From assembly GCA_009840355.1 (NCBI GenBank), contig VXNZ01000047.1, positions 1-53,695 on the forward strand: a DNA stretch of 53,695 bases. Reading direction: 5' to 3'. The position numbers were made by a program, and so were the translations under genes. This DNA is from Chloroflexota bacterium (GTDB taxonomy: Bacteria; Chloroflexota; Dehalococcoidia; Lucifugimonadales; JADFKI01). Each line of letters starts with the position of its first letter. The stretch's first letter is position 1. Of the stretch, positions 4,304-29,957 are shown piece by piece. The notes below the pieces were generated by a model, which saw only the letters and a list, made by a program, of their open reading frames with translations, ran no database searches and was not told where the DNA came from.

Positions 4304-5275
4304 ATGCAACACCAACCCTCCCCCTGCTGCGCCGCAGCCCGCATGCCCTCAACACCCTTAACGCCCGCCGCCGCGCCCTCCACGCCGCAAGCCGCCAATG
4401 GCAGCACGGACGGCATGGCGCTCATCCCCGGCGGCGAGTTCCTAATGGGCACGGACGACCCCGGCGGCTTCCCCGCGGACGGCGAAGGTCCCATACGCTC
4501 TGTGCATGTGAACTCCTTCTACATCGACACTTGCGCCATAACCAACCAGCAGTTCGACCAGTTCGCGCGCGAGACAGGCTACAAGACGGACGCCGAGCGT
4601 TTCGGCTGGTCGTTCGTCTTCCACATGTTCCTGAGGTCGAAGGCACGCCGCACGGCAAAGCAAGCCGTTGCCGATGCACCGTGGTGGTGGGTCATCAACG
4701 GCGCGTACTGGCGCAGGCCGGAGGGACCGGGCTCCAATCTCAAGCGGCGCTGGAATCACCCGGTTACGCACATATCTTGGAACGACGCCCTGGAGTACTG
4801 CAAATGGGCGGGCAAGCGCCTTCCTACCGAGGCAGAATGGGAGTACGCGGCGCGGGGCGGCTTGGCGCAAAAGCGCTACGCATGGGGAGACGAGCTGACG
4901 CCCAGCGGCGAGCATCGCTGCAACATCTGGCAAGGCGTGTTTCCCGATGAGAACTCGGCGGACGACGGCTACAAGGGTACTGCGCCGGTTGACGCATACG
5001 AACCCAATGGATTCGGGCTGTACAATGTCGCGGGCAATGTCTGGGAGTGGACGAGCGACTGGTTCAGCCCGACATTTCATGTTGATGCGAGCAGTGTCGA
5101 GGGGACGCGCGATAATCCGCAGGGGCCTCCAAGGGGACAGGCGAAGACGATACGGGGCGGGTCTTATTTATGTCATGACTCGTACTGCAATCGGTATCGG
5201 GTGGCGGCTCGGACATCGAATACGCCGGACAGTTCTACGGGGAATCTGGGGTTTCGGTGCGCGCGGGATGCGTGA
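4304..5275 (+). CDS. formylglycine-generating enzyme (sulfatase activator)
   Basis: A 323-residue FGE/SUMF1-family protein. FGEs oxidise a cysteine in the sulfatase CxPxR motif to C-alpha-formylglycine, using copper and O2. The family start MALIPGGEFLMGTDDPGG (from residue 38) and the segment TGYKTDAERFGWSFVF closely resemble human SUMF1. Both copper-binding cysteines are present in RGGSYLC290HDSYC295, followed by NTPDSSTGNLGFRCA. Most FGE-fold proteins lack these cysteines, so this copy is probably a genuine FGE. Residues 1-37 are an Ala/Pro/Ser-rich lead without a convincing signal peptide. No sulfatase lies in the window, so its clients are elsewhere. An FGE C-terminal remnant is found at 7347-7397. 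Confidence 0.9.
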   Translation: MQHQPSPCCAAARMPSTPLTPAAAPSTPQAANGSTDGMALIPGGEFLMGTDDPGGFPADGEGPIRSVHVNSFYIDTCAITNQQFDQFARETGYKTDAERFGWSFVFHMFLRSKARRTAKQAVADAPWWWVINGAYWRRPEGPGSNLKRRWNHPVTHISWNDALEYCKWAGKRLPTEAEWEYAARGGLAQKRYAWGDELTPSGEHRCNIWQGVFPDENSADDGYKGTAPVDAYEPNGFGLYNVAGNVWEWTSDWFSPTFHVDASSVEGTRDNPQGPPRGQAKTIRGGSYLCHDSYCNRYRVAARTSNTPDSSTGNLGFRCARDA

Positions 5276-7534: not shown

Positions 7535-8593
7535 TTGCAGCATTATTTTCACTCCGGCGACAACCTAGAGGGCTTGCAGAGATTAGCGCTGATTGGCATC
7601 TCGGTCGATCTCGTCTATATCGACCCGCCATTCGCCACGAACAACGATTTCCTGATTGACTCGCACCGCGCCAATGCGATAAGCGCGTCCGGCAGTCTGG
7701 CGTATTCGGACAAGACGCGCGGCGTGGACTACCTGCGCGACCTACGGCTGCGCTTGGTGGCCATCCACGATGTGATATCGCCAAGCGGCTCGATATATGT
7801 GCACATCGATGTGAAGATGGAGCACCATGTTCGCCTGCTAATGGACGAAGTTTTTGGCGCGCGGAACTTCCGCAACAGCATCACGCGAATCAAGTGCAAC
7901 CCGAAGAACTTCGACCGCTACTCCTACGGCAACATCAAGGACACCATCTTGTTCTACTCGATGTCGCCCGAGCGCATCACTTGGAATCCGCAGAAAGAGC
8001 CTATGTCGCGCGAAGACATTGAGCGGCTCTACCCGCTAGTGGACGCTGAAGGAAAGCGCTACACGACCACGCCGCTGCACGCGCCCGGCGTAACGCGCAA
8101 TGGAGCGACCGGGCGGCAATGGCGCGGAATGTCGCCGCCGGCGGGCAGACATTGGCGCTATCCACCGCACAAGCTAGACGCACTCGACGCCGCCGGAATG
8201 ATAGCGTGGAGCGCGACCGGCAATCCGCGCAAGATACGATACGCTCACGATCCGCACGGCGATGACGATGCGCCTAGGAAGCTGCCGCAGGATGTATGGG
8301 AATATAAGGACCCGCAGCGCGCCTTATATCCCACACAGAAGAACGAAGATATGCTGCGCCGTATCATCCTCACATCTTCAGACCCGGGCGATACGGTCAT
8401 GGACTGCTACGCGGGCAGCGGGGGCACGTTGTTGCAAGCGCATCGACTGGGACGGCGCTTTGTCGGCATGGACGATTCGGAAGCGGCGCGTCAGGTGATT
8501 GAGCGGCGATTAGGGGACGCAGGCGTGGAATACGCGACGCTGACTGAAGATGGCGTGGCGTTGCAGGCGAATTCCGCAGGAACGGCCGAATAA
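7535..8593 (+). CDS. DNA methyltransferase (N6-adenine/N4-cytosine, beta class)
   Basis: A 352-residue S-adenosylmethionine-dependent DNA methyltransferase. The catalytic motif IV is D30-P-P-F33 near the N-terminus. The SAM-binding motif I (VMDCYAGSGGTLL) follows near residue 290. This IV-before-I order is that of beta-class amino-methyltransferases. PTQKNEDMLRRI just before motif I is also typical. TTG 7535 is the only usable start, because an in-frame TAG lies at 7520-7522; AGGCGGG is just upstream. The stop codon overlaps the next ATG (TAATG), so it is translationally coupled to a probable restriction gene, which is interrupted. This methyltransferase may now act as an orphan. Confidence 0.85.
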   Translation: MQHYFHSGDNLEGLQRLALIGISVDLVYIDPPFATNNDFLIDSHRANAISASGSLAYSDKTRGVDYLRDLRLRLVAIHDVISPSGSIYVHIDVKMEHHVRLLMDEVFGARNFRNSITRIKCNPKNFDRYSYGNIKDTILFYSMSPERITWNPQKEPMSREDIERLYPLVDAEGKRYTTTPLHAPGVTRNGATGRQWRGMSPPAGRHWRYPPHKLDALDAAGMIAWSATGNPRKIRYAHDPHGDDDAPRKLPQDVWEYKDPQRALYPTQKNEDMLRRIILTSSDPGDTVMDCYAGSGGTLLQAHRLGRRFVGMDDSEAARQVIERRLGDAGVEYATLTEDGVALQANSAGTAE

Positions 8594-9279
8594 TGTGCGG
8601 TGAACTACCCCCGTTGGACTTTGAAGCCAATGAGCATCAGAGACGCTTGGAGAACCTATCCGCAATGGAAGCGGAGATTGCAGGGCGTTCCAAGAGGTTG
8701 AGAACTCGCATACTGCACTTCGCAGAGCAATTCGGCATACCGGAATAAGATTTCTGGTGGGACTTGGACGCTAACCCAACAGGTACACTTGCCGCAACAC
8801 TCGCACGAGAAGCGCGCCGCAAGAATATTCATGAAAACGCCGCCGCCGCTTACATTGAAGATATGTCCAATGTCGCCGATTTTCGCAAGTTGCCTTCTTC
8901 GGGAAGCAACGCCCTATATGTAAATAGCGATGGACAAATCCTGTCCGGTCAGCAGCTCGCAGGTGCGCCTCGCCCATTCAAATCCATCGATTTTCAATGG
9001 ACTACCTCTGGAGTCACTTGCTACGCCGCGCAGAAGTACACAAAGGCAGGCGGGGGCAATCAGGATAACCAATTCAACGAACTAGAGCGACTGCTTCGCA
9101 ATTTCCAGGGGCGAACCAACAACGGAGTTGCGTTGATTGTTCTCGTTGATGGCGCATACTACGACCAAGCGCGCTTGGCGCGGCTGCAAGGCTTGGTACG
9201 ATTGCAGAGTCCGCGAAGTTATGTCGCAAGCGTCAACAATCTGCATACACTGCTGGAAGAAATCGCAGGCATGAATTAA
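8593..9279 (+). pseudogene. probable type II restriction endonuclease gene with an in-frame stop
   Basis: ATG 8593 overlaps the methyltransferase stop. The frame runs 51 codons (starting MCGELPPLDFEANEHQ) to TAA at 8746-8748, then continues open in the same frame as DFWWDLDANPTGTLAATLAR through to 9279. Joined, it is a protein of about 228 residues. The second half alone could start at TTG 8764 (171 residues). The part from SIDFQWTTSGVTCYAAQKYT to GGGNQDNQFNELERLLRNF, and ALIVLVDGAYYD after it, looks like the core of a sequence-specific endonuclease, but I cannot name the family. With the coupled methyltransferase, a restriction role is the best inference. The TAA could be a true nonsense mutation, a sequencing error, or a split gene. 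Confidence 0.6.
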
Positions 9280-9518: not shown

Positions 9519-11075
9519 ATGAACTACGACCACATCATCGTTGGCGCAGGCTCGGCGGGGGCTATTATCGCCAGCCGGCTTACCGAAGACCCGAACCGCA
9601 CCGTTCTGCTGCTCGAAGCGGGTCCCGACTACCCGGAACTGGACGAGATGCCGCCGGATGTGAAGTTCGGCTATGGGCATGGCTTGGCGGCGATTGATGT
9701 GCTTGGCACGGAGCATCGCTGGCACTTCGTTGCCAAGTCAACCGACCAGGCAGCTCCTATGCTCGTTCCGCGCGGCAAGACTACGGGCGGCTCTTCCGCC
9801 GTGAACGCGCAGATATTCCTGCGCGGCGTGCCGGAAGACTATGACGACTGGGCGTCTTGGGGCAATGATGAGTGGGGCTTTCAGAAGCTTATCCCGTTTT
9901 TCCGCCGTATGGAGACGGACACGGATTTCGCAGACGACTTCCACGGCGTGGACGGTCCAACTATCGTCCGGCGCTACAAGCCCGACGAGTGGCTGCCCGA
10001 CCAGCAGGCATGGTATCAGGCTGCGCGCGAGTACGGCTTCGCGGAATGTCCGGACCATAACGACCCGGACTCCACGGGCGTGGGACCTTCGCCGTTCAAC
10101 AACCCCAACCGCATCCGATGGAGCACGAACATCGGCTACCTGAGCGAGGCGCGCAGCCGCCCGAATCTGACCATCACGGCGCGCGCGCTTGCTCACCGCA
10201 TCCTGTTCGATGGCGGCAGAGCGGTCGGCGTGGAGTTCGAGGCTGACGGCGAGCTGCAATCGGTCTATGGTGATGAGATTATCCTGTCCGCCGGCGCGAT
10301 CGGCTCGCCGCACTTGCTGCTGCTGTCCGGCGTTGGTCCCGCTGACCATCTGCGCGATATGGGCGTCGCCGTCGTTCATGAATTGCCCGGCGTGGGCAAG
10401 AATCTGCGCGACCATCCGCAGGTGCAGCTCACATGGGAGACCAAGCCCGGTTTCGAGCAGGACAGCCTCGCCCCGCGCATACAGTTCATCGTGCGCTACA
10501 CGGCAGAAGGCTCGAACCTGCGCAACGATATGCTCATTCACCCGTTCTCGTATGCGACGCGCAGCCTCTACTACACGGACCCGAACACAGAACCCATCGG
10601 CATCGGCATGATTGCCGCTATCTATCTGGCGGAATCGGCAGGCGAGATGCTGCTCAGGACGACCGATCCCCACATTCAGCCGTTCCTCAATTACAACCTG
10701 CTGGCGACCGACTTCGACCGCAGACGAATGCGCGAGTCCGTCCGGATATGCCTTGACCTTGCCGAGAAAGACGCGCTGGCGGAGCTGATTGAAAGCAGAC
10801 GGTTCCCCGCAGACGCCGACCTCGAATCAGAGCAGGCACTCGACGACTGGATGATGCGCAATGTCAGGACCAGTCACCACATCTCCGGCACATGCAAGAT
10901 GGGTCCCGCTGATGACACGATGGCTGTCGTTGACCAGTACGCTAGGATGCATGGCATCGAGGGCTTGCGCGTGGCGGACGCGGCGATCATGCCGGACTGC
11001 ATCCGCGCCAACACGAACGCCACCTCGATGGTTATCGGGGAGCGCGTGGCGGAGTTTATCAAGGATGGGAACTAA
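9519..11075 (+). CDS. GMC-family FAD oxidoreductase (choline/alcohol dehydrogenase-like)
   Basis: A 518-residue glucose-methanol-choline oxidoreductase. The N-terminal dinucleotide motif VGAGSAGAIIASRL (about 7-20) binds FAD. GGSSAVNAQIFLRG (about 90-103) is GMC signature 1, and SAGAIGSPHLLLLSGVGP (about 258-275) is signature 2. The C-terminal catalytic His is in SHHISGTCKMGP (near 450), with the partner Asn in ANTNATSM (near 497). It should oxidise an alcohol to an aldehyde; the substrate is not determinable. ATG 9519 is chosen because the fold begins there and CGAGGAA precedes it. A paralog starts at 11714, separated only by a toxin-antitoxin pair. Confidence 0.9.
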   Translation: MNYDHIIVGAGSAGAIIASRLTEDPNRTVLLLEAGPDYPELDEMPPDVKFGYGHGLAAIDVLGTEHRWHFVAKSTDQAAPMLVPRGKTTGGSSAVNAQIFLRGVPEDYDDWASWGNDEWGFQKLIPFFRRMETDTDFADDFHGVDGPTIVRRYKPDEWLPDQQAWYQAAREYGFAECPDHNDPDSTGVGPSPFNNPNRIRWSTNIGYLSEARSRPNLTITARALAHRILFDGGRAVGVEFEADGELQSVYGDEIILSAGAIGSPHLLLLSGVGPADHLRDMGVAVVHELPGVGKNLRDHPQVQLTWETKPGFEQDSLAPRIQFIVRYTAEGSNLRNDMLIHPFSYATRSLYYTDPNTEPIGIGMIAAIYLAESAGEMLLRTTDPHIQPFLNYNLLATDFDRRRMRESVRICLDLAEKDALAELIESRRFPADADLESEQALDDWMMRNVRTSHHISGTCKMGPADDTMAVVDQYARMHGIEGLRVADAAIMPDCIRANTNATSMVIGERVAEFIKDGN

Positions 11076-27403: not shown

Positions 27404-27430
27404 GACTTTTCATGAGGGCTGATATACAAT
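27402..27430 (+). promoter_or_regulatory. transposase promoter
   Basis: TTGACT (27402-27407), a 17-base spacer and TACAAT (27425-27430) make a near-consensus housekeeping promoter. It lies between the left inverted repeat and the transposase ribosome site, AGGGAG. Confidence 0.7.
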
Positions 27431-27459
27431 TCTCCCATACTAAGAACAGGGAGATAGAT

Positions 27460-28341
27460 ATGAACCTCGTGCAAGTCTTTCACCGCTTTCCCACTCAAGA
27501 AGCCTGCATTGAGCACCTCGAAAAGGTACGCTGGAATGATAACCCATCCTGCCCGCTATGCCAATCCGAGAATGTGGCGCGCAAGGCTGATGGGGAGCGG
27601 ATAGGACGCTGGAATTGCCATGAGTGCAAGTCCAGTTTCAATGTCCTATCCGGCACGATATTCCAGCAGACGAGACAGCCGTTGCAGAAATGGTTTCTCG
27701 GTATATCGTTGATACTGAACGCCAAGAAAAGCCTCTCAGCGCACCAGTTGGCGCGAGACCTCGACCTAACGGTGCCCACGGCGTGGCGCATGGCTCACCA
27801 GATACGCAAGGCAATGAATGACAGCGATGCCGAGATGTTGAGCGGCATTGTGGAAGCAGACGAGGCGTATATCGGCGGGAAGCCTCGCAAGCACAATCAC
27901 CGCGACAAGAACAATCCCCCCCCCGCAAAGCGCGGTCGTGGAACTCGCAAACTCCCCATAATTGGCGCGGTTGAGCGCGGCGGTCGTGTAGTAGCCAAGC
28001 CGTCCATTAGTGTCAACATGTCGGCTCTCACCGACTTCTTGAGTCGGAATGTCGAGCCTGAAGCACTGCTAATCACAGACGAATATGGCGGCTACAATGC
28101 GATGCACAAGCGCATGCGCCACGCCACTATTGACCATTCAGTGCGCTACGCCGATGGGATTGTTCATACGAACACCATCGAAGGCTTCTGGTCAAATCTC
28201 AAGCGGGCATGGTATGGACAGCATCACCACTATTCCCGCAAGTTCGCTCCCGCCTATGTCATTGAGGCTTGCTACAAGTACAACATCCGCAAGTCCACTG
28301 ACGCCTTCGGCTCGTTCCTTCGGTCGGCGGTGCTGGCATGA
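27460..28341 (+). CDS. IS1595-family transposase
   Basis: A 293-residue ISXO2-type transposase. The N-terminal zinc ribbon is C31-C34 and C53-C56 (PSCPLC ... WNCHEC), followed by a helix-turn-helix region (LSAHQLARDLDLTVPTAWRM). The DDE/N catalytic core has the first Asp in VEADEAYIGG (about 134), the second in LITDEYGGY (about 206), and the third acidic/Asn motif in HTNTIEGFWSNLKR (about 237-240). ATG 27460 follows AGGGAG by six bases; the upstream frame opens inside the promoter and is not used. The frame is intact, so the enzyme is probably active. Its stop overlaps the passenger gene's ATG. Confidence 0.92.
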   Translation: MNLVQVFHRFPTQEACIEHLEKVRWNDNPSCPLCQSENVARKADGERIGRWNCHECKSSFNVLSGTIFQQTRQPLQKWFLGISLILNAKKSLSAHQLARDLDLTVPTAWRMAHQIRKAMNDSDAEMLSGIVEADEAYIGGKPRKHNHRDKNNPPPAKRGRGTRKLPIIGAVERGGRVVAKPSISVNMSALTDFLSRNVEPEALLITDEYGGYNAMHKRMRHATIDHSVRYADGIVHTNTIEGFWSNLKRAWYGQHHHYSRKFAPAYVIEACYKYNIRKSTDAFGSFLRSAVLA

Positions 28342-29957
28342 ACAAACTCTATTACGGCGATTGCCTCACCATCATGATGGAAATGCCCTCAGCAAGCGTT
28401 GATCTGATATACCTAGACCCGCCGTTCAACTCAAATCGTCAGTACAACGCAATCTACAAGGATGAAACAGGGCGACAGCTCCCTGACCAGATAGAGGCGT
28501 TCTGCGATATGTGGGAGCTGGACGCCGAGCGCGATCGCGCTATCCGAGCCATGCCTGTCTTGATGCGCGACGCAGGGATTGACGATGCGATAGCCGAGTT
28601 CTGGAAGCTCTGGATGCGCGCCTTGCGCGACACACAACCGCGTCTGCTTGCCTACCTGTCCTATATGGCGCAACGCCTACTGGTGATGCACAGGCTCTTG
28701 AAGCCGACAGGGAGTATCTACCTTCATTGCGACCCAACGGCAAGCCATTACATCAAGGCTCTCATGGACGCCGTATTCGGGCATGCGAACTTTCGTAATG
28801 AAATTATTTGGCGGCGTACTTCGGCTCACAACAACGCAAAAGGGTATGGGAATGTCACAGATACCATTCTCTATTATCATCGCACAGAACATGCCATATG
28901 GAATCCAATTTATGGGCAAGAGTATTCCGAAGCGCAGTTGTCGAGATATAGAGCAGACGAAAATGGACGCCTCTATCGGGGTGACGACTTAACGGCTCCT
29001 GGTTCGAGCCGTATGTTTGAATGGCGAGGGACTACTCCCCGCACGAGGGGATGGGGGCATTCAGTTGAGGCCCTCGAGCAACTTTGGGGGGAGGGACGGA
29101 TTTTACTGAAGCGCGACGGTACGCCCCGATTGGATGGGCATAAGAGGTATCTTGATGAAATGCCAGGTCCACCAGTACAAAATCTTTGGACGGATATTCC
29201 ACGCATTGGGAACACATCTGGGGAGAGGATGGGTTATGCTACCCAGAAACCCCTCGCCTTATTGGAGCGCATCATTTCCGCGTCCAGCAACCCCGGCGAT
29301 GTTGTACTTGACCCATTCTGTGGCTGCGCTACTACGCTGGAGGCAGCGCACAGCCTCGACAGAAGGTGGATAGGTATAGACATAGCGATTCACGCGGTCA
29401 AGCGCGTTGCGCGTATCAGGCTGAATGAGCGGCTGGGACTGGTGGAGGGTCAGGACTTTGAAATCGAAGGCGTGCCGCGCAATGTCGAGGGCGCGAAAGA
29501 CCTTTGGCAGAAAGACCCCTATCATTTCCAGAAATGGGCGGTGGAACAGGTGGAGGGCTTCGTGACAACTCGCCGCGCGGCGGATGGTGGAGTCGATGGG
29601 CGGCTGTACTTTGCCGTTCCCCACGCTCAGGACTTGCAAAGCATGGTGATAGAGGTCAAGGGCGGTAAGAATGTCAGCATTCGAGACCTACGCGCATTGA
29701 AAGGTGTCCTGGATTATGACGATGGGCTAATGGCGGGCTTGATTATCATGGAGCCTCTGGGCAAAATCAAGGCACGGAACTTTGAGCGATTCTCAGCAGA
29801 CGCCGGAACGCTGGATATACTGGGGATAGAGTATCCGCGCATGCAGATACTGACGGTGGAAGAGATATTCGAGGGTAAGCGATTCGCTACGCCGACAGTG
29901 GCGGGCAGGCATACGCTCGAACCGAGAATGCCGGGTATCCCCGCTGTGGGAGTTTAA
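28338..29957 (+). CDS. DNA methyltransferase fused to a PD-(D/E)XK nuclease domain, IS passenger
   Basis: A 539-residue fusion. The N-terminal two thirds are a beta-class DNA amino-methyltransferase: D27-P-P-F30 (motif IV), YATQKPLALLERII, then motif I VLDPFCGCATTL (about 322-333) and WIGIDI. After a linker, about 400-490 carries a Mrr-like nuclease signature: GGVDGRLYF (near 415), then MVIEVKGGKN (near 436), giving the D...ExK arrangement. It could therefore both modify and cut DNA. ATGA overlap couples its translation to the transposase, and its TAA overlaps the right inverted repeat. It shares family architecture with the methyltransferase at 7535. No separate specificity or restriction subunit lies in the element. 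Confidence 0.87.
   Translation: MNKLYYGDCLTIMMEMPSASVDLIYLDPPFNSNRQYNAIYKDETGRQLPDQIEAFCDMWELDAERDRAIRAMPVLMRDAGIDDAIAEFWKLWMRALRDTQPRLLAYLSYMAQRLLVMHRLLKPTGSIYLHCDPTASHYIKALMDAVFGHANFRNEIIWRRTSAHNNAKGYGNVTDTILYYHRTEHAIWNPIYGQEYSEAQLSRYRADENGRLYRGDDLTAPGSSRMFEWRGTTPRTRGWGHSVEALEQLWGEGRILLKRDGTPRLDGHKRYLDEMPGPPVQNLWTDIPRIGNTSGERMGYATQKPLALLERIISASSNPGDVVLDPFCGCATTLEAAHSLDRRWIGIDIAIHAVKRVARIRLNERLGLVEGQDFEIEGVPRNVEGAKDLWQKDPYHFQKWAVEQVEGFVTTRRAADGGVDGRLYFAVPHAQDLQSMVIEVKGGKNVSIRDLRALKGVLDYDDGLMAGLIIMEPLGKIKARNFERFSADAGTLDILGIEYPRMQILTVEEIFEGKRFATPTVAGRHTLEPRMPGIPAVGV

Follow-up and report, generated by a model that had tools for sequence, protein, structure and literature searches.

An intact methyltransferase gene beside a stop-interrupted endonuclease-like frame in a Chloroflexota genome

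Introduction

In a stretch of 53,695 nucleotides from a Chloroflexota bacterium (GenBank assembly GCA_009840355.1, contig VXNZ01000047.1, positions 1 to 53,695 of the forward strand; hereafter the window), a DNA methyltransferase gene is followed by a reading frame that meets an in-frame TAA after 51 codons and then stays open for another 176. Does this arrangement represent a Type II restriction system whose endonuclease was inactivated, leaving an orphan methyltransferase, or a nuclease made of two chains? Both readings had been proposed in an earlier note on this DNA.

Degraded restriction systems have been described elsewhere. Some orphan methyltransferases adjoin degraded endonuclease genes, as stated in a section of PMC6471742 (citing Seshasayee et al., 2012) in which it is also argued that stepwise loss starts with the endonuclease. 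For Helicobacter pylori, an excerpt of PMC8706393 gives the partner of M.Hpy99III (jhp1049 system) as present in 61 of 459 strains and predicted to be functional in 15, the remaining partners carrying premature stops or frameshifts.

Layout of the Locus and Reality of the Frames

The methyltransferase gene (7535-8593, + strand) has a TTG start, encodes 352 aa and ends, intact, at TAA 8591-8593. Direct reading of the sequence confirmed that a TAATG stop/start overlap (8591-8595, + strand) joins it to the next frame, whose ATG at 8593 shares one base with the preceding stop codon. The 51-codon frame (8593-8748, + strand), likely the N-terminal part of the endonuclease, closes with the TAA at 8746-8748 (+ strand), and a profile search also reported one TAA inside its match. 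The claim that the same frame remains open for 176 codons past this TAA, 171 of them translatable from a TTG at 8764, held on the same reading: the continuation (8749-9279, + strand), putatively the catalytic part of a PD-(D/E)XK-like endonuclease, is open from 8749 to 9276 and ends with TAA 9277-9279, and the TTG (8764-8766, + strand) is a possible restart recognized from the letters alone. An altered genetic code with TAA as a sense codon was rejected, as TAA also terminates the methyltransferase and the endonuclease frame, and programmed readthrough was considered and rejected, nothing having been seen in its favor.

At least 51 open codons, a stop and at least 170 open codons in the same frame occur in 24 of 2845 neighboring pairs over the six frames of the window, and therefore the layout by itself is no evidence. 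A first-order Markov model of the region, simulated 20,000 times, gave P = 0.0014 for the 176 open codons in the given frame, and each of the other five frames contains 2-8 stops across this stretch. According to a codon-usage model trained on 21 other ORFs of the window, the named frame is the best of six in the 51-codon and 176-codon stretches alike, the score of the longer one being reached by 0/2000 random open frames and that of the shorter one by 17/2000. The reality of the gene is carried by this codon usage together with the homology described below.

The Methyltransferase

Residues 24-322 of the methyltransferase match PF01555 (N6_N4_Mtase) with E 2.8e-37 and 129.3 bits (curated cut-off 26.7), covering positions 1-219 of the 221 of the profile, and CcrM, MboIIA, and RsrI are among the solved structures that match it. 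Its sequence has DPPF towards the N-terminus and DCYAGSGGT towards the C-terminus, which is the beta-type motif order. The protein is an intact beta-type N6_N4_Mtase.

Matches to this methyltransferase at E<=1e-40 were found in 27 of 301 Chloroflexota genomes. The corresponding loci (L010-L036) were all searched with three endonuclease queries, gene neighbors having been inspected first for the seven best loci beyond the window itself (L010-L016); in the other 20 (L017-L036) none of the three queries matched. Elsewhere in the window, a 539-aa ORF (28338-29957) that begins a few bases before the end of a transposase-like ORF (27412-28341) resembles a DNA methyltransferase extended at its C-terminus by a nuclease-like domain, and its methyltransferase part is 38% identical to the one studied here.

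Relatives of the Protein Encoded After the TAA

In a search of 50,697 phage records the post-TAA protein had a single match (E 8e-5), an ORF of 226 aa encoded as one chain (L037, 2698-3378) in the 636-kb phage LR756504.1, which lies 99 bases before an ORF weakly matching the Eco57I methylase family (E 2e-4, below the cut-off). PHROG 18366, named "restriction endonuclease II," also matches the post-TAA part (E 4e-4). Among the methyltransferase loci, L010 carries a Tsp45I-family endonuclease beside the methyltransferase (PF06300, E 2.1e-122), and L011-L014 and L016 carry an endonuclease-like protein of about 300 aa that belongs to another group. When the joined frame was aligned with the endonuclease of L016 or L011, the scores (72 and 51, respectively) were reached by 0/500 shuffles in both cases; for L081 and L014 the counts were 4/500 and 45/500, and for the Tsp45I proteins of L010 and L044 they were 15/500 and 182/500. 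The endonuclease neighbors in L046 (79/500) and L045 (268/500) show no similarity to the window protein; L012, L013, and L043 were left out of the shuffle test. Profile-profile comparison with Tsp45I-family members gave E 3.3e-4 over a D...K..GG.Q..QF...DG stretch, and E 6e-4 with a second Tsp45I-family set, vs just 0.035 with the L011 group. Based on these matches, the frame after the TAA is a real gene body coding for an endonuclease-like protein, and this protein has a remote likeness to Tsp45I-type enzymes in their catalytic half. The earlier note had held that the proposal would suffer if no homolog was linked to a methyltransferase; the L011 and L016 ORFs adjoin methyltransferases, and the phage ORF adjoins a methylase-like ORF.

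PF06300 (curated cut-off 25 bits) matched neither the joined nor the post-TAA protein, Pfam and NCBIfam as a whole gave nothing for either, and the 51 residues produced weak rows below the cut-offs. A sequence search of the PDB with the endonuclease returned three chains, all with E>=1.1, and tblastn against 72,556 plasmid records found nothing with the post-TAA protein (E<=1), the phage protein (E<=0.1) or the joined frame (E<=10). Genome contigs yielded no relatives with the endonuclease protein alone, and with the endonuclease alignment only L088, identical to L042 of a congeneric genome discussed below (G372). Viral contigs gave nothing in a first scan and one contig in further scans (IMGVR_UViG_3300012582_000005), its ORF being identical to that of LR756504.1. 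In phylum-wide scans of 301 and of 400 Chloroflexota genomes (overlapping draws), the endonuclease search recovered the window itself and nothing else, and the literature searches brought up no publication title on this locus.

Tsp45I recognizes GTSAC. The likeness of the locus to Tsp45I-type systems lies in the methyltransferase, which shares 52%, 43.5%, and 46.6% identity with those of L010, L043, and L044, respectively, and in the remote profile match of the catalytic stretch; unlike Tsp45I, the window endonuclease has no PF06300 match, shows A for the E of GEAK, and its gene comes after the methyltransferase. The ORFs of L011-L014, L016, and L081, which belong to no Pfam family, adjoin methyltransferases 44-51% identical to that of the window; they differ in being about 300 aa long, upstream of the methyltransferase and uninterrupted. 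The phage ORF shares 33% identity over 136 columns, the same single-chain length and a methylase-like ORF nearby, but its gene is uninterrupted and the adjoining methylase-like ORF is of another type (Eco57I family).

Catalytic Residues and Fold

The putative catalytic stretch (8989-9075, + strand) was delimited by alignment and contains D133, K148, and GG.QD.QF. D133 and K148 align with D173 and K188 of Tsp45I, ungapped from the aspartate to the lysine, and the glutamate of the Tsp45I GEAK is replaced by alanine in the window and by threonine in the phage relative. Since the uninterrupted phage gene also lacks it, the missing glutamate would seem to be characteristic of the group rather than damage suffered in the window.

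The fold model of the endonuclease is poor (pLDDT 51.7, pTM 0.35). The top rows of its structural neighbors are largely nucleases, with Z scores up to 7.2 that fall within the common range, and G proteins and others appear among the lower rows. The PD-(D/E)XK proteins Bax1, Can2, Cdn1, McrC, and MunI are among the best of these neighbors. A Foldseek comparison of the model with the PDB gave no match at E<=0.001.

Are the Two Parts One Gene?

The joined frame encodes 228 aa vs 226 aa in the phage relative. Aligned with the L016 protein, it matches from residue 17 to residue 187 and so across the TAA, where F-GIPE-stop faces FRSIPEV; the score is 64 when the post-TAA part is aligned alone and 72 when the joined frame is used. 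The 51 residues by themselves showed no significant similarity to L016 or the phage protein (scores reached by 70/500 and 79/500 shuffles, respectively), nor to the N end of the phage protein (164/2000). Because these residues find nothing significant, the continuity of the two parts rests on codon usage, length and the alignment across the TAA. The phage protein is the closest known relative with an intact endonuclease, so that codon 52 is not closely comparable. After the TAA the frame contains no second stop and no frameshift, and therefore the break would have to be recent. These points, like the lack of homology for the 51 residues, speak against inactivation of the nuclease.

State of the System in the Genus

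A trace of the system was detected in three of the five searched genomes of the genus, and an intact endonuclease in none. The endonuclease profile matched two of these five genomes and two of 147 in an order-wide draw, namely the window's own and G372, whose contig is identical to JAGGDZ010000016.1 (Chloroflexi bacterium isolate TM_07). G372 keeps a remnant of the methyltransferase, from about residue 251, and one of the endonuclease, from about residue 158, with 76 bases between them; all else of the two genes has been lost. In the endonuclease piece 54 of 64 residues agree with the window protein; over these 64 codons the differences at codon positions 1/2/3 are 13/4/28 (chi-square P 5.5e-5), with dN 0.110 and dS 1.334. 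This ratio and the codon-position pattern show that past purifying selection on this piece was strong, the post-TAA part having been selected as a protein during most of the interval since the two lineages diverged.

A full-length methyltransferase, 76% identical to that of the window, is present in G356, and no endonuclease similarity was found beside it. Between the two methyltransferases dN is 0.176 and dS 1.436, which shows the methyltransferase kept under purifying selection, as in an orphan from a decayed system, with the endonuclease absent in G356 and stopped in the window. A second methyltransferase of G356 (L080, 53% identical) adjoins an endonuclease piece corresponding only to residues 163-258 of the L010 protein, and this piece adjoins a transposase-like ORF. 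G384 and G396 contain nothing closer to the methyltransferase than proteins of 36% and 41% identity, respectively, and therefore neither genome has this methyltransferase; the endonuclease profile also found no match in them. Absences carry less certainty in G384, G396, and G372, whose assemblies are fragmented. In the place of the endonuclease in G356 (L079, 2920-6500), several unrelated methyltransferase-like and nuclease-like ORFs are crowded together, and the region looks like a hot spot for genes of these kinds.

The position of the system differs as well. The two genes that flank the window copy (4304-5275 and 9519-11075) are neighbors in G384, G372, and G356, separated by about 60-90 bases with the system absent between them, and in G396 the protease-like ORF adjoins the first flank up to the contig end. 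The copies of G356 and G372 are located between FG-GAP-like and MFS-like genes (named by eye), and at the equivalent site in G000 only 140 bases separate the matched stretches (C23). Given these differing places, either the window copy was inserted or transferred to its site or the system was gained twice; the locus thus seems to move.

Parallel endonuclease losses are seen beside related methyltransferases in L080, described above, and in L015. In L015 (G061) the endonuclease is cut to its first 20 residues (2628-2687) beside an intact methyltransferase, and in L014 (G246), from the same genus as G061, the endonuclease gene is whole. In L016 (1440-1600, G238) a frameshift near an A run splits a related methyltransferase, and the endonuclease frame remains open; loss in this order was not expected, and a sequencing error or a switchable run may account for it.

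Alternative Explanations

The methyltransferase and endonuclease genes stand side by side, as in a Type II system, and the endonuclease gene is not uninterrupted. Taken together, the homologs linked to methyltransferases, the losses in congeners, the single-chain phage protein and the L016 alignment across the TAA argue for ordinary decay of a Type II system, in which the nuclease was inactivated and the methyltransferase stayed behind as an orphan, and this is probably the correct explanation. The first of the two readings in the earlier note is in this way supported; it presumes a genuine TAA, a nuclease that no longer cuts and an active methyltransferase. If the TAA were instead a base-call or assembly error, or a variant of a minority population, the endonuclease would be intact and the system a working one. 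The remaining 176 codons, open and with gene-like codon usage, would fit such an error, and the assembly consists of 57 contigs and has an estimated contamination of 4.27%, so that the consensus may carry errors. On the other hand, two congeners independently lack an intact endonuclease, which makes loss a trend in the genus, and the other long ORFs of the window appeared unbroken on inspection by eye; we regard an error or variant as rather unlikely.

That a 51-aa chain (from ATG 8593, coupled) and a 171-aa chain (from TTG 8764) cooperate as a split nuclease is very improbable. The in-frame TTG lies 15 bases past the TAA and the frame downstream of it was under selection, but the phage and L011-L016 relatives are single chains, no strong ribosome-binding site was seen by eye upstream of the TTG, and the G372 remnant has no split arrangement, although its deletion spans the place; beyond the available TTG, nothing was found for this second proposal of the earlier note. 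It is scarcely credible, in turn, that the 51-codon frame stands apart, as a small gene of its own or a frame open by chance, and that the endonuclease proper begins past the TAA: this idea would agree with the absence of significant homology for the 51 residues, and it is opposed by the equal codon-usage level in both halves, by a joined length equal to that of the phage relative and by the higher L016 score of the joined frame. There is also a very slim chance that the 171-residue protein is still made from the TTG and is able to cut DNA, either by itself or together with the 51-residue peptide. It would then represent a nuclease branch not described so far, to which the jumbo-phage protein also belongs and whose members have another residue for the usual catalytic glutamate. 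In that case the catalytic residues must sit elsewhere, given the replaced glutamate.

Concluding Remarks

With inactivation of the nuclease as the preferred explanation, a plausible course is that a pair formed by a beta-type methyltransferase and a PD-(D/E)XK-like nuclease, distant kin of the Tsp45I type, was acquired by a Chloroflexota lineage, and that a nonsense change at codon 52 then truncated the nuclease. As the truncation would fall before the catalytic half, no restriction is expected, and the upstream methyltransferase would stay intact as an orphan, marking sites without a cutting partner. It is safe for the host to lose the nuclease before the methyltransferase, whereas the reverse order would expose its DNA to an unpaired nuclease.

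An intact methyltransferase beside a degraded endonuclease, broken or absent in relatives, resembles the decayed-system orphans in the portions of PMC6471742 and PMC8706393 that describe them; the window methyltransferase is of another type and from another phylum than the examples given there, and few genomes were compared here. The decay process is thus already known, and it is found here in a little-known nuclease group. The locus links an unnamed group of Chloroflexota endonucleases with a protein of a jumbo phage. Within one genus, the nuclease of the same system appears stopped, deleted, or eroded together with its methyltransferase, which offers a snapshot of the death of a restriction system.
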